This document shows positions 6,945 through 60,127 of a DNA stretch of 64,000 nt, piece by piece. Position numbers and translations under genes: made by a program. Each line of letters opens with the position of its first letter. Within the stretch, counting starts at the first letter, position 1. The notes beneath the pieces were generated by a model. The model saw only the letters and a list, made by a program, of their open reading frames with translations. It searched no databases and had not been told where the DNA came from. Origin of the DNA: Pyrinomonas methylaliphatogenes (GTDB lineage: Bacteria > Acidobacteriota > Blastocatellia > Pyrinomonadales > Pyrinomonadaceae); contig NZ_CBXV010000004.1 of assembly GCF_000820845.2 (NCBI RefSeq), positions 1 to 64,000 of the forward strand. Reading direction: 5' to 3'.

Positions 6945-6974
6945 GACTTCAAAAATCCAAGGAGTGCAGTTCCG

Positions 6975-7877: not shown

Positions 7878-7884
7878 TTGGATC

Positions 7885-8319
7885 ATGCCAGAAGTGAAGA
7901 TCCAGGGAGCGTCGCTCGCCTACGAAGAATCGGACGTGATCAACTTTGCAGAAGGGTTGATCGGGTTGCCGCGGCTTCGTCGGATGGTGCTCGTCAAACA
8001 GACGGACGTCGAACCGTTCCTGTGGCTCGTGCCGCTCGATGATGAACGGCTCGCTTTCCTCGTCGTCGATCCGCGCGCTCTCTTCCCCGGCTACGCGCCG
8101 AGCTTCCCAGCTGAACTCAGGGATCGAATCGGACTCGGCGAAGATGAGAAGCCGCTGATGTTGAGCATCGTCGTCGTTGGTCGAGATCTCCGCAGTTCGA
8201 CGGTGAACCTGCGCGCGCCGCTCATCATCTCGCCGCGCTCGATGCGCGGCACGCAAGTCGTCCTGACCGAGAGCGATTATCGCGTAGATCATCCATTACC
8301 GGTCGCTCTCGCCGCTTAA
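7885..8319 (+). CDS. fliW: FliW, flagellar assembly factor and CsrA antagonist
   Basis: FliW binds flagellin and also CsrA; when flagellin leaves the cell, FliW is freed to relieve CsrA repression of flagellin translation (known from Bacillus and Campylobacter). The ATG at 7885 gives 144 residues, the normal size; the open frame to 7861 overlaps flgL. Family features include INFAEGLIGLPRLRRMVLV near the N-terminus, FLVVDPRALFPGY in the middle and VNLRAPLIISPRSMRGTQVV near the C-terminus. csrA lies 36 bases downstream and flagellin follows, the standard order of this control circuit. Confidence 0.95.
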   Translation: MPEVKIQGASLAYEESDVINFAEGLIGLPRLRRMVLVKQTDVEPFLWLVPLDDERLAFLVVDPRALFPGYAPSFPAELRDRIGLGEDEKPLMLSIVVVGRDLRSSTVNLRAPLIISPRSMRGTQVVLTESDYRVDHPLPVALAA

Positions 8320-8355
8320 GATCGCGCCTTCGATTGGAAAATAGGTGGCAGGTGC

Positions 8356-8610
8356 ATGCTCGTACTTTCCAGACGCGCCGGAGAGAAGGTGGTCATCGGT
8401 AACGAGATCGTCATCGAAGTTTTGGCGATCAACGGAAACGTGGTGCGCCTCGGCATCACCGCGCCGCGCTCGACTTCGGTCCACCGGTTCGAAGTCTTCG
8501 CTGAGATCGAGCGGGCGAACCGTGCGGCGGCGGAAGCGCAAGGCTTGCATCGAGAGATGATCGAACGAGTCGCGGCCCAGTTGCGCAAGGATGACGCCAA
8601 GGATAGATGA
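8356..8610 (+). CDS. csrA: CsrA, mRNA-binding translational regulator
   Basis: CsrA is a dimeric RNA-binding protein that blocks ribosome access at GGA motifs. The 84-residue protein begins with the hallmark MLVLSRRAGEKVVIG and keeps VRLGITAPRSTSVHRFEV, with the RNA-contact positions L4, R6 and R44-type region in place. The C-terminal tail after residue 60 is a charged helix slightly longer than in E. coli CsrA (61 residues), as common in FliW-containing bacteria. It lies between fliW and flagellin, so flagellin mRNA is the likely main target. Confidence 0.96.
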   Translation: MLVLSRRAGEKVVIGNEIVIEVLAINGNVVRLGITAPRSTSVHRFEVFAEIERANRAAAEAQGLHREMIERVAAQLRKDDAKDR

Positions 8611-8631
8611 AGCAAATCTTCCGAGGCGCGC

Positions 8632-8659
8632 TAAAGTTCGCGCCCTCTCTCTCCGATAA
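8632..8659 (+). promoter_or_regulatory. Sigma-28 (FliA-type) promoter for flagellin
   Basis: TAAAGTTC (8632-8639) and TCCGATAA (8652-8659), 12 bases apart, match the sigma-28 consensus TAAAGTTT-N11-GCCGATAA at 14 of 16 positions, with one extra spacer base. The site lies about 100 bases upstream of the flagellin start and nowhere inside a gene. It fits with flgM in the same block. Confidence 0.8.
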
Positions 8660-8715
8660 GATGGTTGAAACGGGACGCATGATGCGCTCCCACAAAAACG
8701 GAACGGAAGCCAACG

Positions 8716-8753
8716 CACGGACGCGGCGGCTTAAAAACATGTTCACGGAGGAA
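8716..8753 (+). promoter_or_regulatory. Possible CsrA-binding sites at the flagellin ribosome site
   Basis: CACGGA occurs twice: at 8716-8721 and at 8744-8749. The second is continuous with the GGAGG ribosome binding site, 7 bases before the flagellin ATG. CsrA recognises (C)A-R-GGA motifs, and paired sites with one on the Shine-Dalgarno sequence are the known arrangement for flagellin repression. The presence of fliW-csrA directly upstream supports this; binding itself is inference. Confidence 0.55.
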
Positions 8754-8758
8754 CACTA

Positions 8759-9634
8759 ATGTCATTCTCGCTTGTCAACAACTTAGCTTCACTCGACTCT
8801 CAATCGCGTTTGTCCGCCACATCGGCCAAACTCAACCGCACTTTGCAACGCCTCTCCTCGGGCTTGCGCATCAATAATTCCGGAGATGATGCGGCCGGTT
8901 TAGCCATCGCCAACGTGTTTCGCAACGATATCGCCAAGCTTAGCCAGGGCATTCGCAACGCGAACGATGGCGTTTCAACGCTTCAAATCATCGATGGCGG
9001 TTTGGCGACGATCTCCACACTGCTCGACCGCGCCATGACGCTGGCGACGCAATCGGCGTCAGATACATTCACGGGCGATCGCAACACGCTCAACAACGAA
9101 CTTCAGAAGGTTGTGGCGGAGATCTCCCGCCAGGCGCAAAACATCGGTTTGGCGAGCAACAATGCTACTGATCCCGGTTGGGATCGCTTCGCCAAAACGC
9201 TGAACGTGTTCATCGGCGGCGGTACGACGGCCACTTCAAGCAACAACTCGGTAACAATTGACCTTTCGGGTGTCAACGTGGATGCTGCCGGATTGGGTTT
9301 TGCCACTTATTCTGGCGGTACCTATACCTCGACTATTGACATTTCCACACAAGCGAACGCCACGACGGCAATTCAAACGATCAGGACGGCGGTCGACACG
9401 CTCGGCGTGGTGCAAGGTAAAGTCGGTGCCGGTCAGAACAACCTCGCGCAGGCGATCGATCTGGCGACTTCGCAGTTGACCAACTTCCAAGCGGCGGAAT
9501 CGCGCATCCGCGATGCCGATATCGCGGCGGAAGCGTCGGATCTATCGCGCTTGACGATTCTGCAACAGGCTGGCGTGGCCGCTCTGGCCCAAGCCAATCA
9601 ATCGAACCAGGCGGTGCTTTCGTTGCTCCGATAG
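8759..9634 (+). CDS. fliC: Flagellin
   Basis: This is the filament subunit. The 291-residue protein has the conserved D0/D1 N-terminus (LNRTLQRLSSGLRINNSGDD, then AAGLAIANVFRND, about residues 26-60) and C-terminus (ESRIRDADIAAEASDLSR, then QQAGVAALAQANQSNQAVLS). The central variable part (about 140-200) is short and rich in Thr, Ser and Gly, so the filament surface domain is small. It has its own sigma-28 promoter, an overlapping ribosome/CsrA site, and a strong hairpin 36 bases after the stop, so it is a separate transcription unit. Confidence 0.97.
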   Translation: MSFSLVNNLASLDSQSRLSATSAKLNRTLQRLSSGLRINNSGDDAAGLAIANVFRNDIAKLSQGIRNANDGVSTLQIIDGGLATISTLLDRAMTLATQSASDTFTGDRNTLNNELQKVVAEISRQAQNIGLASNNATDPGWDRFAKTLNVFIGGGTTATSSNNSVTIDLSGVNVDAAGLGFATYSGGTYTSTIDISTQANATTAIQTIRTAVDTLGVVQGKVGAGQNNLAQAIDLATSQLTNFQAAESRIRDADIAAEASDLSRLTILQQAGVAALAQANQSNQAVLSLLR

Positions 9635-9669
9635 TGGCGTGGGCGACGACTTCGACAAGGGGGTAAGGA

Positions 9670-9706
9670 TGCTAGAGCGAGCTTCGCCACGGGGCTCGCT
9701 CTAGCA
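9670..9706 (+). terminator. Hairpin terminator after flagellin
   Basis: A perfect 13-bp inverted repeat, TGCTAGAGCGAGC (9670-9682) and its complement (9694-9706), with an 11-base loop, follows the flagellin stop. The downstream sequence is only mildly T-rich, so it may act as a terminator or as a 3' stabilising hairpin for this abundant mRNA. Confidence 0.7.
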
Positions 9707-9748
9707 CATTAGTCGTTCTCGATCGTTCTTTTGCGGAAGCGAAGGCGT

Positions 9749-10120
9749 ATGAGCATGGCCATCACAGGAACGAGTTTGGCTGTTTCGACCTCATATCATG
9801 GCAATGGGGCTAATTTGGCCGGGACCGCACAGGCGGCGCTTTCATCTCCACCCCAGTCGTCAAAGATCGCGAGCCCCATTCGAAATGAACTGCCTGCGCC
9901 AGAGGGCGATTGGCGAAAGCTCGAGAAGCTTGCCGATCTGCTTCAGCCATTTCAAATCGCGTTGAAGTTCAGCCGTGATGATGAGACCGGAGCGATCGTC
10001 ATCCAGGTCTTCGATGAACGGACGGGGGAGATGTTACGCCAGATCCCGCCCGAAGCTATGCTCCGGCTCTCGGCAGAGCTCGGCAAACTCCAGGGACAAG
10101 TCTTTAATCGGCGGGCGTGA
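9749..10120 (+). CDS. flaG: FlaG family protein
   Basis: FlaG proteins affect filament length in several bacteria; their mechanism is not well defined. The ATG at 9749 gives 123 residues. The C-terminal half is the recognisable part: FQIALKFSRDDETGAIVIQV, then FDERTGEMLRQIPPEAMLRL. The N-terminal 50 residues are Ser/Ala/Gly-rich and probably disordered. It lies between flagellin and fliD, its usual location. Confidence 0.9.
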   Translation: MSMAITGTSLAVSTSYHGNGANLAGTAQAALSSPPQSSKIASPIRNELPAPEGDWRKLEKLADLLQPFQIALKFSRDDETGAIVIQVFDERTGEMLRQIPPEAMLRLSAELGKLQGQVFNRRA

Positions 10121-10132
10121 AGAGGTTTCTCT

Positions 10133-11575
10133 ATGGCAAGCATCACTGGCGCGAGCAACAGCGTCTCGAATAGCAATCTCGGTCTGACAAGCTACAGCAG
10201 CGGCATAGATTTCGGCGTCCTCATCGACGCGATCGTCGCGCGCAGCAGCCTTCCGCTCCAGCAGTTGCAATCGCAGCGGAGCACGATTCAGGCGCGCGTC
10301 GATGCTTTGCGCGAACTCAACTCACGCTTGATCAAGCTGACCGACGCGGTGCGCGCCCTTTCAGACGAAACGCTCTCCGCCACGCGCGCGGCCACCTCAT
10401 CCAATACTTCCGTCGCGACGGTTACCGCGAGCGACGGAGCGACGCCAGCGACCATCAACTTGACCGTCACTCGTCTGGCGACGGCGTTTGCGCAAGCTTC
10501 GCGCTCCTTCTCATCGCCGAACGATCCGGTGTTGGCCGCGGGCGCAACAACCGCGACATTTGAATTGCGGAAGGGCGGCGCTTCAAGTGGGCCGACGATC
10601 ACGATCGATACGACGAACAATAGCTTAGCGGGATTGCGCGATGCGATCAACGCGGCAAATGCTGGCGTGACGGCAACGATCGTTGATACGAGCGGCAACG
10701 GCACGGAATATCAATTGGTGCTCACTTCGACCGAGACGGGCGCGAGCAATCGCGTCGAGTTGGTGGAGACGAGCGGCACGGGAACCGATGCTAATCTGAA
10801 CTTGCGCACGCTCAATTCGCTCGGCTCGCCAGCTGACTATTCCCAGCTCGATGCGGAGGTCTCGATCAATGGGTTGGTGGTCCATCGCGCGACGAACAAG
10901 ATCTCCGATCTCGTCGCCGGCGTCACTTTCGAATTGAAGGCGACAGGGACGACAACCGTCAGCGTGGCGAATGACACGCAAGCGGTCGCCAATAAGATCA
11001 AAGCCTTCGTCGACGCCTATAATTCCGTGCAGGATTTCATCCTGTCGCAACAGAACGATCCATCGGGTAAAGCGGGCGGGCCGCTCGCTGCCGACGCGAC
11101 TTTGCGCGCCGTGCAACGCAATCTGCGCGATGCGTTGTCGGCCTCGGCTGTGAATGACGGCGGAGCTTTCACGAACTTGACCGAAATAGGGATCGGGCGC
11201 GATGAGCAGGGCAAGCTGACGCTCGATCAAGCGAAACTCGACGACAGATTGAGGAACGCTTTCAGCGACACGATCGCGCTGTTAGCCGGGAAAACTTCAA
11301 GTAACGTTGGGCTCGCCGATCAGATCTTGACGGTAAGCTCTTCGATGAGCGATCAAATCTCAGGCTCGGTGCAATCGGCCATCAAAGGTTACACCGATTC
11401 TGTTTCGCGCCTCGACAAGCTGATTGCGGATCAACAGGCGAGACTCGACGCCTTGCGCCAGAGCTTGACGCGACAGTTTGCCGCCGTCGATGCCGCGATC
11501 AGCCAGTTGAACGGGCAGGGGACGGCTCTGAGCAACATCATCAAATCGTTGCAACCGCAGAGCAATAACAAATAG
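10133..11575 (+). CDS. fliD: Filament cap protein FliD (HAP2)
   Basis: FliD caps the filament and guides flagellin folding. The 480-residue protein has the family N-terminus (SSGIDFGVLIDAIVARSSLP near residues 22-41, followed by LQQLQSQRSTIQARVDALRE) and a C-terminal coiled-coil (SRLDKLIADQQARLDALRQS, then LTRQFAAVDAAISQLNGQG). The middle holds the repeated Ser/Thr-rich cap domains. It lies 12 bases after flaG and is followed by a hairpin and fliS. Confidence 0.95.
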   Translation: MASITGASNSVSNSNLGLTSYSSGIDFGVLIDAIVARSSLPLQQLQSQRSTIQARVDALRELNSRLIKLTDAVRALSDETLSATRAATSSNTSVATVTASDGATPATINLTVTRLATAFAQASRSFSSPNDPVLAAGATTATFELRKGGASSGPTITIDTTNNSLAGLRDAINAANAGVTATIVDTSGNGTEYQLVLTSTETGASNRVELVETSGTGTDANLNLRTLNSLGSPADYSQLDAEVSINGLVVHRATNKISDLVAGVTFELKATGTTTVSVANDTQAVANKIKAFVDAYNSVQDFILSQQNDPSGKAGGPLAADATLRAVQRNLRDALSASAVNDGGAFTNLTEIGIGRDEQGKLTLDQAKLDDRLRNAFSDTIALLAGKTSSNVGLADQILTVSSSMSDQISGSVQSAIKGYTDSVSRLDKLIADQQARLDALRQSLTRQFAAVDAAISQLNGQGTALSNIIKSLQPQSNNK

Positions 11576-11603
11576 CGAGCTTGCGACAAGGATTCAAGCT
11601 CGC
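11575..11603 (+). terminator. Hairpin after fliD
   Basis: A 9-bp perfect inverted repeat, GCGAGCTTG (11575-11583) and CAAGCTCGC (11595-11603), with an 11-base loop, starts right at the fliD stop codon. No clear T-run follows, so it may attenuate or process the transcript before fliS instead of ending it. Confidence 0.45.
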
Positions 11604-11675
11604 GGCAGCGATTGCCGATAAATCAAATGGACGTTGAAGGGCAGATAGCCGAGACGTCGGATCGAAGGGAAGAAG

Positions 11676-12113
11676 ATGATACCCGTTAAGACGCACGCGC
11701 TGGCAAGCTATGGGAAGATAGCCAACGCTGAAACGGATCGGTTGCAACAGATCATCATGCTCTATGATGGTGCGATCCGTTTCCTGCGCTTGGCCGTCAC
11801 TGACATCGAAAACAAGGATCTTATTGCGAAGGCCGAACACACGAGCCGCGCGCTCGATATCATCGCCTATCTGCAGGCTATCTTAGATTTCGAACGCGGT
11901 GGCGAGGTGGCCCGCACGTTAGATGGCTTCTACGGTCAGATCTCTGCCCTCGTGTTGCGCGCGAGCGCTACGCTCGATGCCGCGCTGATGAGTCGCGCGG
12001 CGGATCTACTCGTTCCGGTGCGCGACGCTTGGGCGGAAGCGCGCGCCTCTCAACTCGTCGCCTCACCGGTCCTCTCGCCACATGCCGATCAGCCTGTTCT
12101 AGCGCGCCCGTAG
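11676..12113 (+). CDS. fliS: FliS, flagellin export chaperone
   Basis: FliS binds the C-terminus of flagellin in the cytoplasm and prevents early polymerisation. The 145-residue helical protein has the expected hallmark near the N-terminus (LASYGKIANAETDRLQQIIM, then LYDGAIRFLRLA, residues 9-40) and a second conserved stretch (HTSRALDIIAYLQAILDFER, about 55-74). It follows fliD as in most bacteria. The last 25 residues are Pro/Ala-rich and variable. Confidence 0.94.
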   Translation: MIPVKTHALASYGKIANAETDRLQQIIMLYDGAIRFLRLAVTDIENKDLIAKAEHTSRALDIIAYLQAILDFERGGEVARTLDGFYGQISALVLRASATLDAALMSRAADLLVPVRDAWAEARASQLVASPVLSPHADQPVLARP

Positions 12114-12128
12114 ATCAACTTTTAACCA

Positions 12129-12572
12129 ATGGCTTTGAAGAAGATCAATGCCCACGCCGATTCGCTCATCGAACTGCTGATCGCGCAGTGTCGCGACCTC
12201 GAACGCTTGCTCGAGCTTTCACGGCGCGAAGCCGCCGCGCTCGAACGCGAGGATTTCTCCGCTCTGCTCGAAACGGTTCGCGAACGGGCGACGCTCGGGG
12301 AGCGATTGGAGGTCTATCATCGCCAGTTGGCCGAATTGCGCGCAGAGATGGGCGAGGATCTCGCGCCCGGACTGAAGAATGAATGGGCCAGTCGGACCAT
12401 CGAGCTTGCGATGGAGATACAGGCCCAAGACGCGGAAACTCGCGCGGCGCTCATCCTCATGCGCCAGAAGACGGGCGAACAGTTGGCGCTCTTAAAACAG
12501 GCGCGCCATCAGGTGAGCGCTTATCTTAATGAAGGGCGGAGACTGCCGATCGCATGCGATCGCTTGGCTTAA
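12129..12572 (+). CDS. FliT/FlgN-like helical flagellar protein
   Basis: This 147-residue protein is almost entirely helical and charged, with heptad-like sequence (LIELLIAQCRDLERLLELSR, then REAAALEREDFSALLETV). It begins 15 bases after fliS. FliT, the chaperone for FliD, is usually placed here, and FlgN has a similar fold and a similar EREDFSALLE segment, so either chaperone is possible. I cannot tell them apart from sequence alone. It is the last gene of the plus-strand flagellar run; the next gene converges on it 52 bases away. Confidence 0.6.
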   Translation: MALKKINAHADSLIELLIAQCRDLERLLELSRREAAALEREDFSALLETVRERATLGERLEVYHRQLAELRAEMGEDLAPGLKNEWASRTIELAMEIQAQDAETRAALILMRQKTGEQLALLKQARHQVSAYLNEGRRLPIACDRLA

Positions 12573-36893: not shown

Positions 36894-36907
36894 GTGATTT
36901 AAGTCAT
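36894..36907. promoter_or_regulatory. Possible FNR/DNR-type box before the nitrate module
   Basis: GTGATTTAAGTCAT has a palindromic TGA-N6-TCA core and matches the TTGAT-N4-GTCAA type of CRP/FNR-family site at 8 of 10 defined positions. It lies about 60 bases upstream of the first gene of the nitrate module, where such regulators commonly act. One short match could be chance. Confidence 0.35.
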
Positions 36908-36969
36908 CGCCCTCGTTTCTGATCCGTTGTCTGATCTCTCGCCCAGAGCCTTGGGACCTTGCGTGAGTG

Positions 36970-38058
36970 ATGGGCGCATCGGGAGTCGAACTTCGCACCG
37001 ACAAGCGGCCTGGCCGGGGAGCGACGGCCAACGAGAAGGTTCGTGCGCTTCTCTGGTCGGCGCTGGGGTCGCTCGCGCTCACGGTTCTGATCGTCATCGG
37101 ATCGCGCAACCTCGAGCACTATGATGCTGCGCTCTTTGGTTACACCGTCGCCAGCGTGGTCGCGTTCGGCGCGATCATTTTCCGCTACGCGATCTGGCTC
37201 CGCCGTCCGGCGACGCGGCGCTATTGGCTGCGTGGTTGGCAACTCTTCCTCGACCCGAAGAACCTTGCGGCTAATCTACGAAGTATCATCGCCACCGGAT
37301 TCGGCAATCTCGTCGCGCAACGGTTCATCATGCGCCGCAGCCGCGCGCGTTGGTTGATGCACGCGCTCATCATGTGGGGGTGCATCATCTCGGCGCTCGT
37401 CACCTTCCCTCTGGTCTTCGGTTGGATCCATTTTGAACTCGAAGGCGCGCGCGCTTATCGCGCGTACCTCTTTGGTTTTCCGACCGTCGCCGTGGATGGC
37501 CGGTCGATCGTCGGTTGGGTGACCTTTCATGTGCTCGACTTTACGGCCATCATGGTCATCGCCGGTTGCGCCATCGCCATCCATCGTCGGTTGCGCGATC
37601 GCGGAGCGATCGCAATGCAACAGTTCGCGCTCGATTTCGCGCCGCATCTGCTGCTGATCGCCATTTCGGTCTCGGGCTTGATGTTGACGGTGTCGAGCCT
37701 GTGGTTGGGCGGATACATGTACTCGTTCATCTCGCTCGCCCATCAAGCGCTCGTCATCATGACGCTCTTCTATCTGCCGTTCGGCAAATTCTTCCACATC
37801 GTGCAGCGACCGGCCTCGATCGGCGTTGAACTCTACCAAAATCGCGGGCGGGAGATGGTGCAAGCGCGCTGCGCGCGTTGCGGCGCAGAGTTCGTCGCGC
37901 AAGCGTGGCTCGACGATCTCAAGGGCGTCGTGCGCGAACTCGGGTTCGATTACCGGCTGAAGAACGGGCGCACGTTGCAGGACTACTGCCCGCGCTGCAA
38001 GCGCGTCATGCGCGGACTCGCATATGCGGCGCTCGCGCAAAGGCTCGAGCGTGATTGA
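36970..38058 (+). CDS. NarI-like membrane cytochrome b with C-terminal Cys-rich domain
   Basis: The 362-residue protein has about six membrane segments. Histidines placed at segment ends (near residues 131, 154, 187, 205, 226, 258 and 276; e.g. FHVLDFTAIMVIAGCAIAIH) suggest b-type hemes like NarI/DsrM/HdrE subunits. A tail (from about 300) carries CARC and CPRC, a likely zinc ribbon or rubredoxin-like site. It begins the module encoding a molybdoenzyme, ferredoxin and Rieske protein and is the likely quinol-oxidising anchor. The family assignment is by pattern, so heme binding remains an inference. Confidence 0.7.
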   Translation: MGASGVELRTDKRPGRGATANEKVRALLWSALGSLALTVLIVIGSRNLEHYDAALFGYTVASVVAFGAIIFRYAIWLRRPATRRYWLRGWQLFLDPKNLAANLRSIIATGFGNLVAQRFIMRRSRARWLMHALIMWGCIISALVTFPLVFGWIHFELEGARAYRAYLFGFPTVAVDGRSIVGWVTFHVLDFTAIMVIAGCAIAIHRRLRDRGAIAMQQFALDFAPHLLLIAISVSGLMLTVSSLWLGGYMYSFISLAHQALVIMTLFYLPFGKFFHIVQRPASIGVELYQNRGREMVQARCARCGAEFVAQAWLDDLKGVVRELGFDYRLKNGRTLQDYCPRCKRVMRGLAYAALAQRLERD

Positions 38059-38088
38059 AAAACTTTTCCGCAAGAGCGTTGAAACGTC

Positions 38089-40314
38089 ATGAGCAAGATC
38101 GGCGATCTTCAAGAGGTGGTCAGAGAGTTCGGCCCGCACTTGCACGATGCGCCGTACGACGGCTGGCGCGCCGATCGCGAGATCGAGCGCATGGTGCCGA
38201 CGCACTGCCCATATTGCGGCATGCAGTGCGGCCTCTACCTGCTCGTGGAACGAGGGCGCGTCGTCGGTTTGGAACCGCGCTACGATTTCCCGGTCAACGA
38301 AGGGCGTCTCTGCCCCAAAGGCGTCACGGCCTACTTGCAGGTCCACCATCCGGATCGCCTGCTCCATCCGCTGATCAAGCGCGATGGGAAGTTCGTGCGC
38401 GCCTCGTGGGACGAAGCTTTGGATCTCGTCGTCGCGCGATTTCGCGAGATTCAGGCCAAGCACGGCAAAGACGCGCTCGCCGTCTATTCCGGTTCATCGC
38501 TGACGACCGAGAAGACCTACTTGATGGGCAAGTTCGCGCGCGTCGCGCTCGGCACGCGCTACGTCGATTACAACGGGCGATTGTGCATGGTCTCGGCGGC
38601 GGCGGCCAATCTCAAAGCCTTCGGGGTGGATCGAGGCTCGGCCAATCCGTGGAGCGACATCCCGCTCGCCGAAGTGCTGCTGATCGCCGGCGCAAACTGC
38701 GCCGAGACCTTTCCCATTCTCAACAAGTTCCTCTGGCAGCAGCGCGACAACGGCGGGCGCTGGATCATCGTCGATCCGCGCCAGACGCCGACCGCGCGCC
38801 AAGGCGACGTTCATCTGCAGCTTAGGCCCGGCACCGACGTTGCGCTCGCCAACGCCCTGTTGCACGTCATCGTCGAAGAAGGGCTGATCGATCATGATTT
38901 CATCGCCAACCACACCGTCGGATGGGACGAGGTGCGCTCGACGGTCGCGCGCTACACGCCACAAGTGGCGGCTGAGATCACGGGCGTGCCCGCGGAAAGA
39001 ATAGTTGCGGCGGCGAGACTCTACGGGCGAGCGCGCACGGCGATGGTCTTTCACGCGCGCGGCATCGAACACCATTCGCACGGCGTCAACAACGCGCTCG
39101 CCTACATCAACCTCGTGCTGGCGACGGGCAAGATCGGCGCGCCCGGGCGCGGTTACGGGACGATCACCGGACAGGGCAACGGCCAAGGCGGGCGCGAACA
39201 CGGGCAAAAGGCCGATCAATTGCCGGGCCAGCGCTCGATCTCCAATCCCGAACATCGCCGCGCGATCTGCGCCGTGTGGGGCATCAGCGAAGAAGAGCTG
39301 CCGCCGGCGGGCGTGTCGGTCGTCGAGATGTTCGAACGGATGCGGCGCGGCGAGATTCGCGGCCTGCTTTCGATCTGCAACAACGTCATGGTCAGTTTGC
39401 CCGACACGAACACGGTGCGCCGCACGCTCGAAGAACTCGACTTCTACGTCTGCATCGACTTCTTCATGTCCGAGAGCGCGCGGTACGCCGATGTCGTCCT
39501 GCCGGGAACCGCTTGGAGCGAAGACGAAGGCGTGACGACCAACGGCGAAGGGCGCGTTATCAAGATCAATCGCGCCAACGACCCGCCCGGCGAAGCGCGC
39601 CACGATTGGTGGATCGTCTGCGAGATCGCGCGCCGTCTGGGGCGCGGAAAGTATTTCCCATTTCAAAGCTCACGCGACATCTTCGAAGAGATACGTCTCG
39701 CTTCGCGCGGCGGCAACGCCGACTACTACGGCATGACGTGGGAGAAGATCGAGCAGAACGACGGCATCTTCTGGCCCTGCCCGACGCCGGACCATCCGGG
39801 GACGCCGCGCTTATTCGAGGATCATATCTTTTATCATCCGGACGGCAGAGCGCGCTTTCATGCGGTCGAGTATGAGCCGCCTGCCGAAACGCCGGATGAG
39901 GAGTTCCCGTTGATCTTGACGACGGGGCGCGTCGTCTACCAGTACCTGTCGGGCAATCAGACGCGGCGCATCAAGTTCTTGGTGGACCAGTGCCCGGAGC
40001 CTTACGTCGAGATCCACCCGGAGACGGCGCGCCGGTTGGGCATACAGGACGGCGAGCGCGTGCGCGTCCGTTCGCGCCGCGGAGAGGGCATCTTCCCGGC
40101 GCTCATCACCGAAACGATCCGGCCCGATACGATCTTCATCCCGTATCACTGGCCGGAGCCGCAGGCGGCCAATCTGTTGACCAATCCGGTGCTCGATCCC
40201 GTGTCGAAGATTCCGGAATTCAAAGCTTGCGCGGCGCGCATCGAGAGGCTCAAGGGCGGCGCATTGCCGCTCTACGGCGCGAGGCGCAAGGGCGCCTCGC
40301 AGAGCGAGGCTTGA
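38089..40314 (+). CDS. Molybdopterin oxidoreductase, nitrate-reductase type
   Basis: The 741-residue enzyme is of the NasA/NarB/NapA branch of the DMSO-reductase superfamily. The N-terminal [4Fe-4S] ligands are C40, C43, C47 and C75 (CPYCGMQC, then RLCPKG). The probable molybdenum ligand is C166 in [12 protein letters not shown]. Cofactor-binding motifs include [12 protein letters not shown] and [13 protein letters not shown]; the C-terminal domain has [17 protein letters not shown]. There is no twin-arginine signal, so the enzyme should be cytoplasmic. With a NarK-type transporter in the same run, nitrate is the likely substrate; formate dehydrogenase-like activity is an outside possibility. 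Confidence 0.85.
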
Positions 40315-40357
40315 AACCGCGATCGCCCGAAGTGACATAGCGTTTTGGAGGCGGAAG

Positions 40358-40981
40358 ATGGAAGAGACGATGTTCATCGACCCGCGGCGGTGCATCGGAT
40401 GTCGCGCGTGCGTCTCCGCTTGTCGCGAGTGCGGGACGCACAAAGGCCATTCGATGATCTTCGTCGATTATCTCGATCGGGGACACACGACGGCCACCAT
40501 GCCGACCATCTGTATGCATTGCGTCGAGCCGACCTGCGCGCTCGTCTGTCCAGCCGATGCGATCAAGGTCTCCGAGGATGGTGTGGTGATGACGGCGATG
40601 GAGCCGCGCTGCCTCGATTGCCGCAACTGCGTCAACGCCTGTCCGTTCGGCGTGCCGAAGTACAACACGGCGATGCACCTGCAGATGAAATGCGATCTCT
40701 GCTTCGACCGGACGGCGGAAGGTTTGAAGCCGATGTGCGCGAGCGTCTGTCCGACGGGCGCGCTCACCTACGGTCGGTACGAGGAGATCGTGCCTCAGCG
40801 GCGCGATGTGCGCCCCGTCAACGTGCACATCTTCGGCCACCAGCGCGTCGAGACGAAGGTCTACTTGATGTTGCCCATCGAGGCGGATGAGATCCGAGTC
40901 GATGAGGACGGCGAGCCTTCTTTCCGCGAATCTTGGTTGGACGCCCAAGTCGAGACGGCGGATAAGAGGAATGAATTCTAG
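40358..40981 (+). CDS. Ferredoxin-type electron transfer subunit with four Fe-S clusters
   Basis: The 207-residue protein has 16 cysteines in four groups ([37 protein letters not shown] and CDLCFD...CASVCP), the layout of NarH/DmsB/NrfC-type subunits. The first group is followed by an additional Cys (CRECG). It has no signal peptide and would pass electrons to the molybdoenzyme encoded 43 bases upstream. The C-terminal 60 residues are acidic. Confidence 0.9.
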
Positions 40982-41005
40982 CGAGCTTGGAGGCGAAGCG
41001 CTATC

Positions 41006-41614
41006 ATGACGAAGGATGAATCGCTCACGCCGCTTTCGGATGAAAGGGAGGTAAGGCGCGCGAGCGCGCCGTATCAACGCGAGTTTCCATACGAGCGCGA
41101 CGAGGAAGCGCAGGTGGCGCGACGCGAGTTCTGCCGTTTCCTCGGTTTCACATCGGCAGCTTTCTTTCTGAGCGCTGTGGGGTTCGCCGCCAAAAGCTAT
41201 TGGGAGGCGCAACGTGTCCCGCCGTTCAAGCCCTTGCGCATCGAAGGCGCGGAAGATTTACAGCCCGGCGAAGCCCTCAACTTCCGCTATCCGACCGAAA
41301 GGGATTCAGCCATTCTGGTGCGCGCCGAAGATGGAAACTACTACGCTTATGGACAGAAATGCACTCATTTGTCATGTCCAGTCTACTACGAACGCAGACA
41401 CGGGCGACTCGAATGTCCGTGCCACGAGGGCGCTTTCGACCTGAAGACAGGAAACGTCCTATACGGTCCGCCGCCGCGCCCGCTCGATCGCATCGTCCTC
41501 GAGGTCAGAGGCGATGGCATCTGGGCCGTAGGGCGTGAGGCCGGTGGAGGTGGGCGTTTCGGGCGTCTCTTCGTTTCGGATCTTTCCAGCGAGCGCGATG
41601 GTAAATGCAGTTGA
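41006..41614 (+). CDS. Rieske [2Fe-2S] protein with Tat-type membrane anchor
   Basis: The 202-residue protein has one hydrophobic segment (about residues 44-63) preceded by a twin-arginine motif (RREFCRFLG, R39-R40), so the folded cluster domain is probably exported and stays anchored. Cluster ligands are C119/H121 (CTHLSC) and C137/H140 (CPCHEG), with C124 and C139 able to form the usual disulfide. It follows the ferredoxin gene by 24 bases. Its 3' end contains one copy of a 36-bp direct repeat. Confidence 0.9.
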   Translation: MTKDESLTPLSDEREVRRASAPYQREFPYERDEEAQVARREFCRFLGFTSAAFFLSAVGFAAKSYWEAQRVPPFKPLRIEGAEDLQPGEALNFRYPTERDSAILVRAEDGNYYAYGQKCTHLSCPVYYERRHGRLECPCHEGAFDLKTGNVLYGPPPRPLDRIVLEVRGDGIWAVGREAGGGGRFGRLFVSDLSSERDGKCS

Positions 41615-41705
41615 TCGCGCTTTGATGTGTGAGTTCTCTCGCGCGCTTGATCATGAGCATGGCGACCAAATGGTAAATGGAGTTGATTGCGCTTTGATGT
41701 GCGGG
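41598..41705. repeat. Pair of 36-bp direct repeats at the end of the Rieske gene
   Basis: Copies at 41598-41633 and 41670-41705 (starting ATGGTAAATG and ending near TTTGATGTG) match at 32 of 36 bases, with exactly 36 unrelated bases between. The first copy contains the Rieske stop codon; the second is non-coding, 14 bases before the next gene. Confidence 0.75.
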
Positions 41706-41718
41706 AGATGGCGGTTTC

Positions 41719-42030
41719 ATGGCATCCCGTTTGGCGAAAGTCGGAGTAAGTAGTCGCGGCAGTTTGCGGCTTCGTTCGAGGAGACTGGCGGGGCGCGCCG
41801 CCGTGGAGCAAGCGCGCCTCATCCTGCTCGTGATGATCAATATCGCGCAGCTCTGGATCCTTTCAGCTACGGTCGAAGCCTCGCTAGCCGCGCGTTTTGA
41901 TCTGCTGCTTCCATTGGTCATCTCTTCCGCAATCTGTTTCTTTATTGCGTTGTCGGTTCTTCTTTGGTGGCGCCCAACTCTGATGGGAAGCGAAAAGGAT
42001 GGACCATTAAACGAGGGGGCGCTCATCTGA
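41719..42030 (+). CDS. Small two-helix membrane protein in the nitrate module
   Basis: The 103-residue protein has an Arg-rich start (residues 1-32) and two membrane segments (about 34-54 and 60-85) with a short loop. It lies between the Rieske gene and the nitrate transporter on the same strand, so it may be an accessory or assembly subunit. I recognise no functional motif and no heme-binding His in the helices. Confidence 0.65.
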   Translation: MASRLAKVGVSSRGSLRLRSRRLAGRAAVEQARLILLVMINIAQLWILSATVEASLAARFDLLLPLVISSAICFFIALSVLLWWRPTLMGSEKDGPLNEGALI

Positions 42031-42117
42031 AGCGATCTGAAGCTTCACGGCGGAAACTGGGCGCATAGCGAGAAGTTTGGAGTCAACTTCGATCATGATT
42101 TTGGAGCGGGGAAGAGC

Positions 42118-43296
42118 ATGAGTGAAAGCGCGCAAGCCAATCGTGCGCTGGCGTTGGCGACAATCGCCTTTGCGGTCTCATTCGCCGTATGGGGGCTCGT
42201 CTCCGCGCTTGCTCCGACCTTCGCGCGCCTTTATGACCTTTCAGCGACGCAGACCAGCTTGTTGGTCGCCTCGCCGGTCCTTCTCGGTTCGCTCGGAAGA
42301 TTGCCTGCCGGGTTGTTCGCTGATCGTTATGGCGGTAGGCGCACGTTCTCTCTGCTGTTGCTGTTGGCCGCTTTGCCTGCCATATTGATTGGGTTGGCGA
42401 CAAGCTACACACAACTCGTCGTCGGCACAGTGTTGCTAGGGATTGCTGGGACTACCTTCCCTGTCGGCGTTGGTTTCACATCGAAATGGTTCCCTCCAGA
42501 GAGACAAGGCTTCGCTCTCGGCGTTTACGGCATGGGCAACATCGGACAATCGCTTGCCGTCTTCGGCGTTCCGACGTTGATCTCATTGTTGGGCGATTGG
42601 CGTCCGGTCTGTTTCGCTTTCGCATCGCTTTCCTTGATTATGAGCGTGCTCTTCTACCTCATGGCTCGAGATGCAGTGGCGGAACCTAAGTCCGGAAGTT
42701 TGTTCGATGGCTTGCTCTTCCTCAAACGTTCCCCGCTCGCGTGGGTGCTTTCGCTCTTCTATTTTCTGACTTTCGGTGGCTTTGTCGCGCTCGCCATCTA
42801 TCTGCCGACCCTTTTGCGCACCGAGTTTGCCCTCTCGGCGATGGATGCCGGAGCTCGCACGGCTGGTTTCATCATCCTTGCCACCTTGATGCGTCCGCTC
42901 GGCGGTTGGCTCGCTGACCGCTTCGGCGGCGCGCGCATATTGGCGATCGTTTTCTGCGCTCTCATCCTCTGCGGATTGTTGATGAGCCACGGACAGATGC
43001 TGACTTTCACCGCAGGAGCGCTCGGCGGAGCCGCCGCCTTGGGAGCAGGCAACGGAGCCGTTTTCAAGCTTGTACCTCTTTGCTTTCCAAAAGAGACGGC
43101 AACGGTGACCGGATTGGTCGGGGCTTTCGGTGGACTCGGCGGATTCTTCCCGCCGCTCGTTCTCGGCGCAGTCAAAGATGCGACCGGCAGCTATACGCTT
43201 GGGTTCATACTGCTATCGCTCTTTGCGCTCGCTTGCTTGCTCATCAATCGTTCAGCTTTCGGGGCGCGCTTTGAAGAATCGATGCGTCAAGCTTGA
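42118..43296 (+). CDS. NarK-type nitrate/nitrite transporter (MFS)
   Basis: The 392-residue protein has twelve membrane segments and belongs to the NNP branch of the major facilitator superfamily. The two glycine-rich nitrate signatures are visible: GIAGTTFPVGVGFTSKWFPP (around residue 110) and GAGNGAVFKLVPLCFP, with GAFGGLGGFFPP just after. The arginine in GRLPAGLFADRYGGRR fits the substrate-site region. It is the last transport component of the module; import of nitrate or nitrate/nitrite exchange are both possible. Confidence 0.92.
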   Translation: MSESAQANRALALATIAFAVSFAVWGLVSALAPTFARLYDLSATQTSLLVASPVLLGSLGRLPAGLFADRYGGRRTFSLLLLLAALPAILIGLATSYTQLVVGTVLLGIAGTTFPVGVGFTSKWFPPERQGFALGVYGMGNIGQSLAVFGVPTLISLLGDWRPVCFAFASLSLIMSVLFYLMARDAVAEPKSGSLFDGLLFLKRSPLAWVLSLFYFLTFGGFVALAIYLPTLLRTEFALSAMDAGARTAGFIILATLMRPLGGWLADRFGGARILAIVFCALILCGLLMSHGQMLTFTAGALGGAAALGAGNGAVFKLVPLCFPKETATVTGLVGAFGGLGGFFPPLVLGAVKDATGSYTLGFILLSLFALACLLINRSAFGARFEESMRQA

Positions 43297-43354
43297 AGTT
43301 TTGCGAGCCTTTTGCCTCAACATAATTTGAAAAACGCTTTCTGCAACTTAAGCG

Positions 43355-43870
43355 ATGTTGAATAGCTTACTGGCCAGTGATCATGATGCCATTGACGATC
43401 TCTTCGCGCAATCGGAGACGGCATTGAAAGCGAAGGATCACGAACGAGCTTTAGCTCTGCTCGATCTTGCTTGGGCGCGCTTAGCTGTGCACATTCGCGC
43501 CGAGAACGTGCGGCTCTTCCCGCGCATTCTGCGGTCGGGCGACCGTCTCGAAGCGGGGCAGAGGGAACGCATCGCTTCGCTTATCGCGCGCTTGCGTGAA
43601 GATCATAACTTCTTCATGGCGACGTTAGCTGAGGCCATAAAATTGGCGCGCGCGTTGAGCGAGGATGAGGGGCGGTTTGCCCAAGTGTTGGAGAAGATCG
43701 AGGCCGTTAAAAGACGGCTCAGCGCGCACAACGAACTGGAGGAAAGTATGGTCTATTCGCTTCCGGCCCATCTGCTCGATGAAGCGGAACTTGAAGATTT
43801 GAAACAGGCTGTCCAACGCGAACTGGAAAACCTGCCGCCAAGATACGCTCGCGGAGGCGAGATCGATTGA
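43355..43870 (+). CDS. Hemerythrin-like (HHE) domain protein
   Basis: The 171-residue four-helix protein has metal ligands spaced as in HHE proteins: H10, H46, E50, H84, H125 and E129 (SDHDAID, VHIRAE, EDHNFF, AHNELEE). It is cytoplasmic. Such proteins bind O2 or NO or repair Fe-S centres; next to a nitrate reductase, protection from NO and nitrite is a plausible role. It lies 58 bases after the transporter and is probably the end of the module. Confidence 0.85.
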   Translation: MLNSLLASDHDAIDDLFAQSETALKAKDHERALALLDLAWARLAVHIRAENVRLFPRILRSGDRLEAGQRERIASLIARLREDHNFFMATLAEAIKLARALSEDEGRFAQVLEKIEAVKRRLSAHNELEESMVYSLPAHLLDEAELEDLKQAVQRELENLPPRYARGGEID

Positions 43871-54552: not shown

Positions 54553-55035
54553 ATGAAGGTCTCAGCGCAAGAGGAGTACGGGTTGCGGTGTTTGCTGCAA
54601 CTTGCCCGGCTCGGTTCGGGCGAGTATCTAACGCTCGCGCAGATCGCCGAGCGCGAGGGGATCACGGTCGCCTATGCGGGCAAGCTCCTCTGGATCTTGA
54701 ACAAAGCCGGTCTAGTCCGCTCAATTCGCGGGACCAAGGGCGGTTATATGCTGGCGCGACCGGCTTCGGAGATACGTTTGAGCGAGATCATCAAGGTGCT
54801 CGACAAGGGCGGGTTGCAGGATTACTGCCGCAGTTACCCTGGGACGTTGCAGGCGTGCATACACACGAGCGATTGCGGCATCCGTCCTGTGATCATCAGC
54901 CTTCACGAGATCGTCGAGCGAGCATTGTCTGAGATCACGCTCGCGCAGCTTGTCGGGCCCGAAAAGAGCGTCGGCGCGGCGCTCCATCAGATTCAGGGAT
55001 TAGCGCGCCACGCTGCGCCGAAGAAGAGCGCCTGA
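54553..55035 (+). CDS. Rrf2-family regulator of the suf operon
   Basis: The 160-residue protein has an N-terminal winged helix (SAQEEYGLRCLLQLARL, IAEREGITVAYAGKLLWILN, RSIRGTKGGYMLARP). Three cysteines, C92, C102 and C108, could hold an Fe-S cluster as in IscR, SufR or NsrR. It heads the sufBCDSU run, as SufR/IscR-type regulators do, and probably senses Fe-S status. The palindromic operator just upstream fits autorepression. Confidence 0.9.
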   Translation: MKVSAQEEYGLRCLLQLARLGSGEYLTLAQIAEREGITVAYAGKLLWILNKAGLVRSIRGTKGGYMLARPASEIRLSEIIKVLDKGGLQDYCRSYPGTLQACIHTSDCGIRPVIISLHEIVERALSEITLAQLVGPEKSVGAALHQIQGLARHAAPKKSA

Positions 55036-55111
55036 AACGTAAGATCTGCAAGGCGCGAGGCGGGCGATTGAAAGTGAGATTTGGAACAAATTCGGAGTCG
55101 AAGAGGGAGTC

Positions 55112-56551
<1,440 letters not shown>

Positions 56552-56656
56552 GGAGGCGAGGGGAGAGGCGACTTCGGTCGCTTTCTCCCCTCTTTCGACC
56601 GAAGCTTTGGGTGAATGAGCGAGTTTTCATCTGCAAACGATAGACGGAGTGGATTC

Positions 56657-57421
56657 ATGCTGGAGATTCGTAATTTGCATGCGACGATTGACGATCAAGA
56701 GATCTTGCGCGGCATCGACTTGAAAGTCAGCGCCGGCGAGGTGCACGCCATCATGGGGCCGAACGGGTCCGGAAAATCGACCCTCGCCAAGGTGCTGGCG
56801 GGCCATCCGGCCTACGAAGTGACCGAGGGCGAGATCATCTATGAAGGCAAGAACCTTTTGGAGATGGACCCGGATGAGCGTGCGCGCGAAGGCGTCTTCA
56901 TGGCCTTCCAGTATCCGGTCGAAGTGCCCGGCGTGTCGAACGCGCAACTGCTTCGCCTCGCCTACAACGAGAAACGCAAGCATCAGGGGCTGGAGGAACT
57001 CGATCCGCTCGAATTCAAAGAGTTGCTCGCCGAGCGGGCCAAGCTCGTCGATATGGACTTGAGCTTCATGTCCCGTTCGGTCAACGAGGGCTTTTCCGGT
57101 GGCGAGAAGAAGCGCAACGAGATACTGCAGATGGCCGTGCTCGAACCGAAGCTAGCCATCCTCGACGAGACCGATTCCGGTCTCGACATCGACGCATTGC
57201 GCATCGTCGCCGATGGCGTCAACAAGCTGCGCCGTCCGGACAACGCCATCATCCTTGTGACGCACTACCAGCGCATCCTCAACTACATCATCCCCGATTA
57301 CGTTCATGTGCTCTATCGCGGGCGCATCGTTCGTTCCGGGGGCAAGGAGCTGGCGTTGGAGTTGGAGGAGAAGGGGTACGACTGGATCAAATCCGAAGCA
57401 GGAGTGACAGCGAGCGCGTAA
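56657..57421 (+). CDS. sufC: SufC, Fe-S assembly ATPase
   Basis: SufC is the ABC-type ATPase of the SufBCD complex. From ATG 56657 it has 254 residues, the family length; ATG 56615 is an upstream alternative. Walker A is GPNGSGKST, the signature [10 protein letters not shown], Walker [17 protein letters not shown] and the switch His [10 protein letters not shown]. The stop is 2 bases before sufD, so the two are translationally coupled. Confidence 0.97.
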
Positions 57422-57423
57422 AG

Positions 57424-58770
57424 ATGATGACACAGGCAACCGAGGCGAAAGAGACGGGTCTTTATCTCGAAGCTTACGAGCAGTTGCGACAGCGGACGGC
57501 GAGCGAAGTGCCTAGTTGGCTCGACCGACTGCGCGCCGAAGCGTTGGAGAAGTTTTCCGAACTGGGTTTTCCTGCGCCGACGCTCGAAGAGTGGCGCTAC
57601 ACGAACGTCGCGCCGATCGCCAAAGCGCGTTTCGTCCCATCGTGGACAGTCGATGGCGCTGAAGAGGCGGGGCGGCGCTGGGCGGATCGCGTCTACGAGG
57701 AAGCGCGATCGAGCGTGCTCGTCTTCGTCAACGGTCGGTTCCGGTCGGATCTCTCTTCGCTTGCGGCTCTTCCGCGTGAAGCTGTGGTGTTGGGCCTGGC
57801 CGATGCTTTGCGAAGCGAGCATCAAAAGATGATCGGCGAACGATTGGCGCGCGGCGCTGCTTTCGATCGACAGCATTTTGCCGCCCTCAACACGGCTTTC
57901 ATCGCCGATGGCGCGTTCGTTTATCTACCGCGCGGCGTGCGCGTCGAAGCGCCGATCCAATTGCTCTTCATCTCCGACTCCGGTCCGGTGATGAGCTTTC
58001 CGCGCGTGCTCGTCGTCGCCGAGCGCGAAAGCGAAGCGACCTTGATCGAACGCTACGTCGGCGCGGCTGATCAGCCGTATTTCACCGATGCGGTCGTCGA
58101 GATTTACATCGATGAGAACGCGCATCTCGAGCACTACAAGGTACAAGAGGAGGGCGTGCAAGGATTCCACGTGGCGACGACGTGGGTCGAATTGAAGCGC
58201 GCGGCGCGGTACCATTCGACGACCGTCACGTTGGGCGCGCAGCTTGCGCGGCACAACATCGCCGCGATTCTGACCGAAGAGGGCGGCGAGTGTCGTGTCG
58301 ATGGGCTTTACATGGTCGATACGGGGCAGCACGCCGATACACACTCGTTGATCGAACATCGCGCGCCGCGCTGCACGAGCTTTCAGCTCTACAAAGGTAT
58401 CCTCGACGGGCGTTCGCGCGGCGTTTTCAACGGGCGGATCTACGTCCACCGCGAAGCGCAGCAGACGGACGCTTATCAAACGAACCGGAACTTGATGCTG
58501 TCGAACGAAGCGCGCGTCGACACCAAACCGCAGCTTGAAATCTTCGCCGATGATGTCAAGTGCTCGCACGGGGCGACGGTCGGACAGCTCGAAGAGGAAG
58601 AGCTTTTCTACTTGCGGACGCGCGGCCTATCGTTCGAAAAGGCGCGCAACCTTCTGACCTACGGGTTCGCTGAAGAAGTGGTCGAGAAGATCGCCGTCGA
58701 TTCGATCCGCGAGCAGTTGAACGAGGTGATCTTGAACCGTCTGCATGCGACGGCGCTCGATGTGAGGTGA
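57424..58770 (+). CDS. sufD: SufD, Fe-S scaffold subunit
   Basis: SufD pairs with SufB. The 448-residue protein has an N-terminal helical part (SWLDRLRAEALEKFSELGFP, PTLEEWRYTN), then a beta-helix core (LPRGVRVEAPIQLLFISDSG, FQLYKGILDGRSRGVFNG) and the conserved end KCSHGATVGQLEEEELFYLR. The H in CSHGAT matches the cluster-forming His region of SufD. Confidence 0.96.
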   Translation: MMTQATEAKETGLYLEAYEQLRQRTASEVPSWLDRLRAEALEKFSELGFPAPTLEEWRYTNVAPIAKARFVPSWTVDGAEEAGRRWADRVYEEARSSVLVFVNGRFRSDLSSLAALPREAVVLGLADALRSEHQKMIGERLARGAAFDRQHFAALNTAFIADGAFVYLPRGVRVEAPIQLLFISDSGPVMSFPRVLVVAERESEATLIERYVGAADQPYFTDAVVEIYIDENAHLEHYKVQEEGVQGFHVATTWVELKRAARYHSTTVTLGAQLARHNIAAILTEEGGECRVDGLYMVDTGQHADTHSLIEHRAPRCTSFQLYKGILDGRSRGVFNGRIYVHREAQQTDAYQTNRNLMLSNEARVDTKPQLEIFADDVKCSHGATVGQLEEEELFYLRTRGLSFEKARNLLTYGFAEEVVEKIAVDSIREQLNEVILNRLHATALDVR

Positions 58771-58864
58771 GGAAGTCACCCATCCTATAGCTTGCCGCCG
58801 GGGAACGATTGGTGAAAGAGCGAATGTCAAAAAGAGGGCCGAAGCGAGCAGGGAGAGGAGAGAG

Positions 58865-60127
58865 ATGATCGCCGCTGAGAAAGATTTAAATGCTGTCAGC
58901 GAGCTGGGGCATTGGGATGTCGAGCGCATCCGGCGCGATTTCCCCGTTTTACATCAGACGGTCAACGGCAAACCGCTCGCTTATCTCGACAACGCCGCGT
59001 CGTCGCAAGTGCCGCAACTTGTGATCGAACGCGGCACGCGCTACTTGCGCGAGGAGCACTCGAACATCCATCGCGGCGTCCACTACTTGAGCCAACGCGC
59101 CACGTCGGCTTACGAGGGCGCGCGCGAGAAGGTGCGGCGCTTCATCAACGCGCGTGAAGCTCGTGAGTGCATCTTCGTCCGCGGCGCGACCGAAGGGATC
59201 AATCTGGTGATGCACGGCTACGGGCGCAAGTTCGTCGGGCCGGGCGATGAGATCGTCATCTCGGAGATGGAGCATCATGCGAACATCGTCCCGTGGCAGA
59301 TGCTCTGCGAAGAGAAAGGGGCGCGTCTGCGCGTCATCCCGATGAACGATGCGGGCGAATTGCTGCTCGACGAGTACGAAGCGTTGTTGAACGAGCGGAC
59401 CAAGATCGTCGCCGTCACGCACGTGTCGAACGCGCTCGGCACAGTCAATCCCATCAAAGAGATCGTCCGCATCGCGCACGCGCGCGGCATCCCCGTCCTT
59501 GTTGACGGCGCGCAAGCGGCCCCTCATCTGCCGATCGATGTGCAGGATTTGGATTGCGATTTCTACGCGATCTCCGGCCACAAGATGTTCGGCCCGACGG
59601 GGAGCGGCGTACTTTACGGCAAGGCGGAACTTCTCGAGCGGATGAACCCGTTCATGGGCGGCGGCGACATGATCCGTTCCGTGACGTTCGAGAGGACGAT
59701 CTACGCCGGGTTGCCGAACAAGTTCGAAGCGGGCACTCCAGCCATCGCCTCGCAAATCGGATTGGGCGCCGCCATCGATTACCTGAACTCGATCGATCGG
59801 GCGGCGGCCTACGCCTACGAGCAGGAGTTGTTGCGTTACGCGACGGAACGGCTGTCGAGCATCGAAGGCGTGCGCGTCATCGGCACGGCGCGCGAGAAAG
59901 CGAGCGTCATCTCGTTCACGGTCGAGAACGTCCATCCGCATGACATCGGAACGATCCTCGATCAAGAGGGGATAGCCATTCGGGCCGGCCACCATTGCGC
60001 GCAGCCCGTTATGCAGCATTTCAAGATACCGGCGACGGCGCGCGCTTCGTTCGCCTTCTATAACACGAAGGAAGAAGTGGACCGGTTAGCTGCGGCCATC
60101 GAGAAGGTGATCGAAGTCTTCAATTGA
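58865..60127 (+). CDS. sufS: SufS, cysteine desulfurase (group II)
   Basis: SufS takes sulfur from cysteine for cluster building. The 420-residue PLP enzyme has the PLP lysine K240 (ISGHKMFGPTGSG) and the persulfide cysteine C378 (RAGHHCAQPVM), with DNAASSQVP at the start and the NIVPWQ region near residue 140. The RAGHHCAQP form is typical of group II desulfurases that work with SufU or SufE. sufU follows in the same run. Confidence 0.97.
   Translation: MIAAEKDLNAVSELGHWDVERIRRDFPVLHQTVNGKPLAYLDNAASSQVPQLVIERGTRYLREEHSNIHRGVHYLSQRATSAYEGAREKVRRFINAREARECIFVRGATEGINLVMHGYGRKFVGPGDEIVISEMEHHANIVPWQMLCEEKGARLRVIPMNDAGELLLDEYEALLNERTKIVAVTHVSNALGTVNPIKEIVRIAHARGIPVLVDGAQAAPHLPIDVQDLDCDFYAISGHKMFGPTGSGVLYGKAELLERMNPFMGGGDMIRSVTFERTIYAGLPNKFEAGTPAIASQIGLGAAIDYLNSIDRAAAYAYEQELLRYATERLSSIEGVRVIGTAREKASVISFTVENVHPHDIGTILDQEGIAIRAGHHCAQPVMQHFKIPATARASFAFYNTKEEVDRLAAAIEKVIEVFN

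Follow-up and report, generated by a model that had tools for sequence, protein, structure and literature searches.

A conserved gene module joining a NasC-lineage molybdoenzyme to a NarI/EtfD-like cytochrome and a Rieske protein: a candidate quinol:nitrate oxidoreductase

The seven-gene locus of Pyrinomonas methylaliphatogenes K22

The DNA analysed here (the window) is a stretch of 64,000 nucleotides from the genome of Pyrinomonas methylaliphatogenes K22 (3,788,560 bases, 16 contigs). Seven open reading frames (ORFs) on the + strand, from 36967 to 43870, lie between genes for an alanine racemase and a PEP-CTERM-like protein, and encode a membrane cytochrome (cytB), a molybdopterin catalytic subunit (MoCat), an iron-sulfur subunit (Fer), a Rieske protein, a small protein with two transmembrane (TM) segments, a NarK-family transporter and a hemerythrin-domain protein. 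An original prediction, made from the letters alone, had named these seven genes; every one of them is an ORF in the place assigned to it, and family searches gave names to most. As argued below, this module probably specifies a nitrate reductase that does not correspond to the Nar, Nap or Nas types.

MoCat (38089-40314, + strand, 741 amino acids) carries all three Pfam molybdopterin domains, and no twin-arginine (Tat) signal was found in its sequence. Its top NCBIfam match is NasC, with 898 bits (below the curated cut-off of 1100), followed by the formate dehydrogenase alpha subunit TIGR01591 with 659 bits against a cut-off of 666; its PDB sequence neighbours are also formate dehydrogenases. 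The NAPA and narG models gave only 291 bits (cut-off 931) and 76 bits (cut-off 1084), respectively, which sets the protein apart from NapA and NarG. The active site reads NGRLCMVSA, with the ligand Cys166 followed by Met, and the NGRLCM motif occurs in 31 of 31 module sequences. Met after the ligand Cys is shared with NasC, NasA and NapA, whereas formate dehydrogenases read ARVCH at this position, a Cys/Sec-His pair that the module enzymes lack.

A tree of 50 sequences places the module molybdoenzymes in a single clade (support 100/99), sister to NirB-linked NasC-type enzymes, with NasA/NapA and formate dehydrogenase outside. When arsenite oxidases were added, the module clade was recovered with 100/100 support and the AioA sequences formed a separate clade, also with 100/100, to which MoCat does not belong; in this tree the relation of NasC to the module clade could no longer be resolved. 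Both trees were built without the characterised Bacillus subtilis NasC, cyanobacterial NarB and Klebsiella NasA. The expected assimilatory/periplasmic lineage of the catalytic subunit was thus borne out: NasC is its best match, and the module enzymes, with their Cys-Met active site, make up a well-supported clade of their own inside the Nas lineage, apart from NapA, arsenite oxidase and formate dehydrogenase. The fold of the Rieske protein had hinted at a close relation with arsenite oxidase, for which the catalytic-subunit tree gave no support.

The cytB gene (36967-38058, + strand) encodes a protein of 363 amino acids, predicted to be a six-helix diheme b-type membrane cytochrome with a NarI/EtfD/QmoC-like fold. 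No Pfam family matched it, NCBIfam gave weak QmoC/TcuB matches only, and the NarI model PF02665 has no match in the K22 genome. Profile comparison with E. coli NarI (hhalign) returned a probability of 79% and an E-value of 1.6e-5, and the AlphaFold model (pLDDT, the predicted local distance difference test, 84.7) shows six helices. By fold, the sole credible match is to EtfD of Mycobacterium, a cytochrome of the NarI/HdrE type (prob 0.96, TMq 0.39); Foldseek matches to G-protein-coupled receptors were discarded as artefacts (root-mean-square deviation near 20 A, low TM score). The proposed name of NarI-like cytochrome therefore stands as regards profile similarity to NarI and the EtfD fold, and fails as regards membership of the NarI Pfam family. 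His132, His259 and His277 are invariant and His155 is near-invariant; the spacing of 18 between His259 and His277 equals that between His187 and His205 in the NarI structure. In the C-terminal domain Cys302 is invariant and most Acidobacteriota have CxxC pairs (CxxC...CxxC in K22). The positive charges suggest that both ends of the protein and its positive loops are cytoplasmic.

The Fer subunit (40358-40981, + strand, 207 amino acids), assigned by Fer4_11 and related Pfam models, is an electron-transfer protein of the NarH/DmsB/FdnH kind. It contains four 4Fe-4S cysteine groups, and 17 cysteines are invariant over 22 sequences, enough for four clusters. The module possesses both partner subunits typical of NarGHI, a four-[4Fe-4S] subunit, recognised by its cysteine groups, and a predicted diheme quinol cytochrome, recognised by four conserved histidines and its similarity to NarI/EtfD.

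The Rieske [2Fe-2S] protein (41006-41614, + strand, 202 amino acids) appears to be held in the membrane by an uncleaved twin-arginine anchor. Arg39-Arg40-x-Phe42 and CTHLxC...CPCH are invariant in 25 sequences, and the structural model consists of one long helix (31-69) followed by a Rieske domain in which all cluster and disulfide residues are kept. The closest folds are the small subunits of arsenite oxidase (AioB). Box II reads CPCHxGxF, without Ser and Tyr. These two residues raise the potential of the bc1 Rieske protein, and because they are missing here, a lower potential is likely. Apparent ferredoxin-Rieske fusions in three loci (L131-L133) were rejected, as the N-terminal extension does not share the reading frame of the ferredoxin, for which there is an ORF of its own. 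Two copies of a direct repeat of about 32 bases (ATGGTAAATGsAGTTGATyGCGCTTTGATGTG) lie 72 bases apart at 41598-41702, where the Rieske gene ends and the spacer ahead of the two-TM gene follows.

The two-TM protein (41719-42030, + strand, 103 amino acids) is a candidate small membrane subunit which matches DUF6755 (PF20540) weakly, with 24.9 bits against a cut-off of 27. In a sample of 199 Acidobacteriota genomes DUF6755 is confined to 26, each of which belongs to the 30 with a strong cytB match; in 25 of them the two genes share a contig and are separated by 3.5-4.9 kb (hypergeometric P for the co-occurrence 1e-28, computed ignoring shared ancestry). This family thereby gains a functional context from the module. 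The transporter (42118-43296, + strand, 392 amino acids) is assigned to the NarK-type nitrate/nitrite proteins of the major facilitator superfamily (MFS) by TIGR00886, with 233 bits against a cut-off of 312; in six loci NarK and cytB are one ORF. The last gene (43355-43870, + strand, 171 amino acids) encodes a hemerythrin-domain protein (PF01814, above cut-off), possibly an accessory in NO/O2 handling or Fe-S repair.

A candidate FNR/DNR-type operator, TGATTTAAGTCA (36895-36906, no strand assigned), with a perfect TGAY-N4-RTCA core, is located 72 bases before the cytB start. This strict core precedes cytB by no more than 250 bases in 10 of 52 loci, two pairs of which are close kin, compared with 0.69 expected from mononucleotide shuffles keeping base composition only; 10 was never reached in 500 shuffles. 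A looser FNR-site score gave 22 of 52 loci against a shuffled mean of 15, which is not significant.

Conservation and genomic context of the module

A genome scan returned 67 loci, and cytB and MoCat were found together in 69 loci when the loci of relatives were included, some of these being overlapping fragments of the same contigs. They belong to Acidobacteriota, Bacteroidota, Verrucomicrobiota, Planctomycetota, Actinomycetota, Armatimonadota, Hydrogenedentota and Pseudomonadota, to which plasmids of Deinococcus add Deinococcota. The cytB-MoCat-Fer-Rieske core recurs with its gene order unchanged in at least eight phyla, usually with NarK. Among 48 loci of at least 9 kb, some of which overlap one another and some of which lose genes at contig ends, MoCat is directly accompanied by an adjacent cytB in 48, by Fer in 47 and by Rieske in 45, so that the arrangement cannot be due to chance; NarK is near in 30 and a DUF6755-like gene in 24. 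Of the set of seven whose joint conservation had been proposed as a check, the four core genes, NarK and, in many lineages, DUF6755 do keep together across phyla; the hemerythrin gene is loosely conserved, with a close homologue near 5 of the 48 loci and a different, RIC-type hemerythrin near 20.

Two Deinococcus plasmids (L112 and L113) carry cytB, MoCat, Fer, Rieske, DUF6755 and NarK in a row, one of them with a hemerythrin-domain gene close by. Their public annotation names cytB an 'MFS transporter' and MoCat a molybdopterin oxidoreductase only. Annotation pipelines break the module up, and surveys that rely on narG or napA would overlook it. Also near the module on these plasmids are an FmdE-family gene, a GAF-domain gene and another MFS gene of the NarK type. 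In six loci of Pyrinomonadaceae-like genomes (L040, L044, L052, L068, L069 and L081) it is neighboured by a family of about 500 amino acids without a Pfam match (L052:17240-18880).

Strain K22 uses nitrate as a nitrogen source (PMC4644332). This growth can be explained by a separate locus on another contig (L089), where a second enzyme, 53% identical to MoCat, adjoins nirB, nirD and cysG. The soluble donor (NADH, ferredoxin or flavodoxin) and linked nitrite reductase of the NasC type are not what accompanies MoCat, which has a membrane cytochrome and a four-cluster subunit instead. Among 31 module genomes, several of them metagenome-assembled genomes of unstated completeness, 14 lack a sirohaem reductase (PF01077), and 8 of those 14 also lack an NrfA-type protein; in two relatives (G014 and G016, each 95% complete) neither a PF01077 protein nor NrfA was found.

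NrfA is encoded within a few kb of the module in three Acidobacteriota genomes (G009, G026 and G030), and nrfA together with NrfH near it in four loci (L044, L024, L068 and L093). Upstream of the module in seven Bacteroidota loci there is a gene for a NirK-type Cu-oxidase/cytochrome c protein, with an FGE-sulfatase protein and SCO1 beside it in the locus examined; NirK as defined by TIGR02376 was not found above cut-off in 40 relatives. Crp/Fnr regulators (11 loci) and NnrS (3 loci) were also observed. No NirB is encoded in the K22 window, as had been remarked of nitrite reductases in general; the remark holds for the window and does not extend to several relatives, in which a nitrite reductase is adjacent, including NirB in two.

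Of 41 module genomes, 34 have no NarI and none has a NapA that scores above cut-off. In most of the Bacteroidota, Verrucomicrobiota and Acidobacteriota genomes checked, the module is the only candidate of the Nar/Nap class.

Proposed function and rival explanations

We consider it likely that the module encodes a membrane-bound quinol:nitrate oxidoreductase with a cytoplasmic active site, i.e. a Nar-like layout built on a NasC-lineage catalytic subunit. This view draws on gene content and order, phylogeny, active-site residues, ligand conservation, the NarK-cytB fusions and genomic context, all of which are directly seen. Quinol would be oxidised at the six-helix diheme cytochrome, from where electrons would cross the membrane via the two hemes b and then travel along the four clusters of the ferredoxin subunit and the [4Fe-4S] cluster of MoCat. 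Nitrate would then be reduced to nitrite at a cytoplasmic molybdenum bis-pyranopterin guanine dinucleotide (Mo-bisPGD) centre, NarK serving for nitrate import and/or nitrite export. If quinol is oxidised on the outer side, the complex would be as electrogenic as NarGHI. To this path the complex would add a periplasm-facing Rieske protein and often DUF6755; the former might provide a second periplasmic exit or entry for electrons, act as a partner at the quinol site, or form a link to periplasmic cytochromes. The substrate, direction, electron path, quinol site and respiratory or redox-balancing role given here are those that we infer from sequence. A respiratory role is favoured over assimilation by the separate nasC-nirBD locus of K22, the many module genomes devoid of a sirohaem nitrite reductase, the nrfHA or nirK genes beside the module in several lineages and the enrichment of FNR-type motifs upstream. 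The suggested nitrate reductase, of none of the Nar, Nap and Nas types and with a respiratory or redox-balancing task, is supported to this extent, with nitrate reduction and respiratory function as its predicted parts.

Several points weigh against this interpretation. A Nar-like path leaves the role of the Rieske protein unexplained, and the membrane topology is itself a prediction. In one genome (locus L140 of G229, 6586-11834) a NarK-cytB fusion stands alone: no gene for a molybdoenzyme, a ferredoxin or a Rieske protein lies within 18 kb of it. NarI and the module lie close together in some genomes, which means that a genome can have another nitrate reductase beside the module; in one Acidobacteriota genus (g62, 11 species) NarI is encoded at a distance of roughly 8-12 kb in six species and is missing from five. 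NirB adjoins the module in 2 of the 48 loci (L045 and L048). K22, moreover, is described as an obligate aerobe (PMC4644332), and therefore anaerobic nitrate respiration is not expected in this strain, where our guess is that the module serves redox balance or survival at low oxygen. The fusion of L140 is, as a separate observation, close to a weak NirK-like gene.

The two NirB-adjoining loci, together with the NasC lineage of the catalytic subunit, the use of nitrate nitrogen by K22 and the presence of NirB in Flavobacterium genomes, are what an assimilatory enzyme would lead one to expect, one with quinol as its electron donor, in place of NADH or ferredoxin, and with NirB as the recipient of its nitrite. 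We give this explanation a small though appreciable chance, as K22 has its own nasC-nirBD-cysG locus, Flavobacterium has a separate enzyme near NirB, many module genomes are without a PF01077 protein, and the neighbours are nrfHA, nirK, RIC, NnrS and Crp/Fnr genes. The Flavobacterium enzyme, a Nas/Nap-like molybdoenzyme of about 1175 amino acids (G051, G064-G067 and others; in G051 about 11 kb from NirB), is probably assimilatory. A bifurcating variant of the quinol:nitrate reaction, in which the two electrons of quinol are divided between the Rieske protein and the diheme cytochrome in a Q-cycle-like manner, with a NarI/EtfD-type cytochrome in place of bc1 cytochrome b, seems to us unlikely. 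One electron would pass via the Rieske protein to a periplasmic cytochrome c (on the oxidase, NirK or NrfA side), and the other via the hemes and the Fe-S subunit to cytoplasmic nitrate.

It is improbable that the complex acts on another substrate, such as formate, arsenite, chlorate or another oxyanion: the near-threshold TIGR01591 score, the formate dehydrogenase neighbours in the PDB, the AioB-like Rieske fold and the NasC score below cut-off point that way, whereas the Cys-Met active site, trees that exclude both formate dehydrogenase and arsenite oxidase, and a NarK gene adjacent or fused point to nitrate. We would be equally surprised if the molybdoenzyme were carried to the periplasm by the twin-arginine signal of the Rieske protein, as in arsenite oxidase, and exchanged electrons with it directly. 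The invariant twin-arginine motif, the AioB-like fold and a catalytic subunit without a signal of its own would fit such a scheme; against it, NarK, needed only for cytoplasmic nitrate reduction, outnumbers every other additional gene and occurs fused to the cytochrome, the long uncleaved anchor helix resembles that of the bc1 Rieske protein, and the catalytic subunit and AioA are not sisters in the tree.

Known systems and other features of the window

The module resembles NarGHI in having a Mo subunit, a four-[4Fe-4S] subunit, a diheme quinol-oxidising cytochrome with a His pair 18 apart and a NarK partner. However, its catalytic subunit is a NasC-lineage Cys-Met protein of 741 amino acids and not NarG, its cytochrome is larger and has a C-terminal cysteine domain, Rieske and DUF6755 proteins are added, and no NarJ was found. 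NasC enzymes of the Bacillus, Paenibacillus and Mycobacterium type are the nearest relatives of MoCat and share its DYNGR(F/L)CM motif, but their genetic partner is NirB, in place of a membrane cytochrome, four-cluster subunit and Rieske protein; both types are present in K22. The haloarchaeal nitrate reductase cluster also includes a Rieske protein (narB) and a cytochrome b (narC) (PMC2483277), yet its catalytic subunit is NarG and narC is a 486-amino-acid cytochrome b of the bc type, in contrast to the NarI/EtfD-like cytochrome and NasC-like Mo subunit of the module. In the Nap cluster of Caldithrix abyssi a Nas/Nap-branch molybdoenzyme occurs with a Rieske protein, a cytochrome b and an ammonifying nitrite reductase (PMC5317091); there, unlike here, the enzyme is a periplasmic NapA with NapM/NapGH, the Rieske/cytochrome b pair is of the bc1 type, and there is no nitrate transporter. 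AioBA likewise combines a Mo subunit with a Tat-dependent Rieske protein, the closest in fold, but is periplasmic, has no four-cluster subunit or quinol cytochrome, and its AioA falls outside the module clade.

In their survey of the enzyme family, Wells et al. (2020) state that four-[4Fe-4S] and membrane-anchor subunits are associated with none of the Nas/Nap/Aio/FdhH enzymes and that the role of NasA/NasC is confined to assimilation (PMC7331816). The gene content of the module contradicts the first statement, making it a widespread exception to the rule stated for this branch, and the module probably contradicts the second as well. No earlier description of this gene set was found in the searchable literature, which mostly excludes subscription journals. 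Nitrate reduction has been reported for acidobacteria that have nasA-like genes but none of the known dissimilatory reductases (PMC5900883), and the module could account for reports of this kind.

Elsewhere in the window, at 54553-60127, a gene for an Rrf2-family regulator lies immediately upstream of apparent SUF Fe-S assembly genes, as judged from ORF prefixes only. A flagellar cluster (FlgG, FlgA, FlgI, FlgK, FliW, flagellin, FliD and FliS) occupies 75-12572; the presence of flagellar genes in a strain described as non-motile was already remarked upon in the genome paper.

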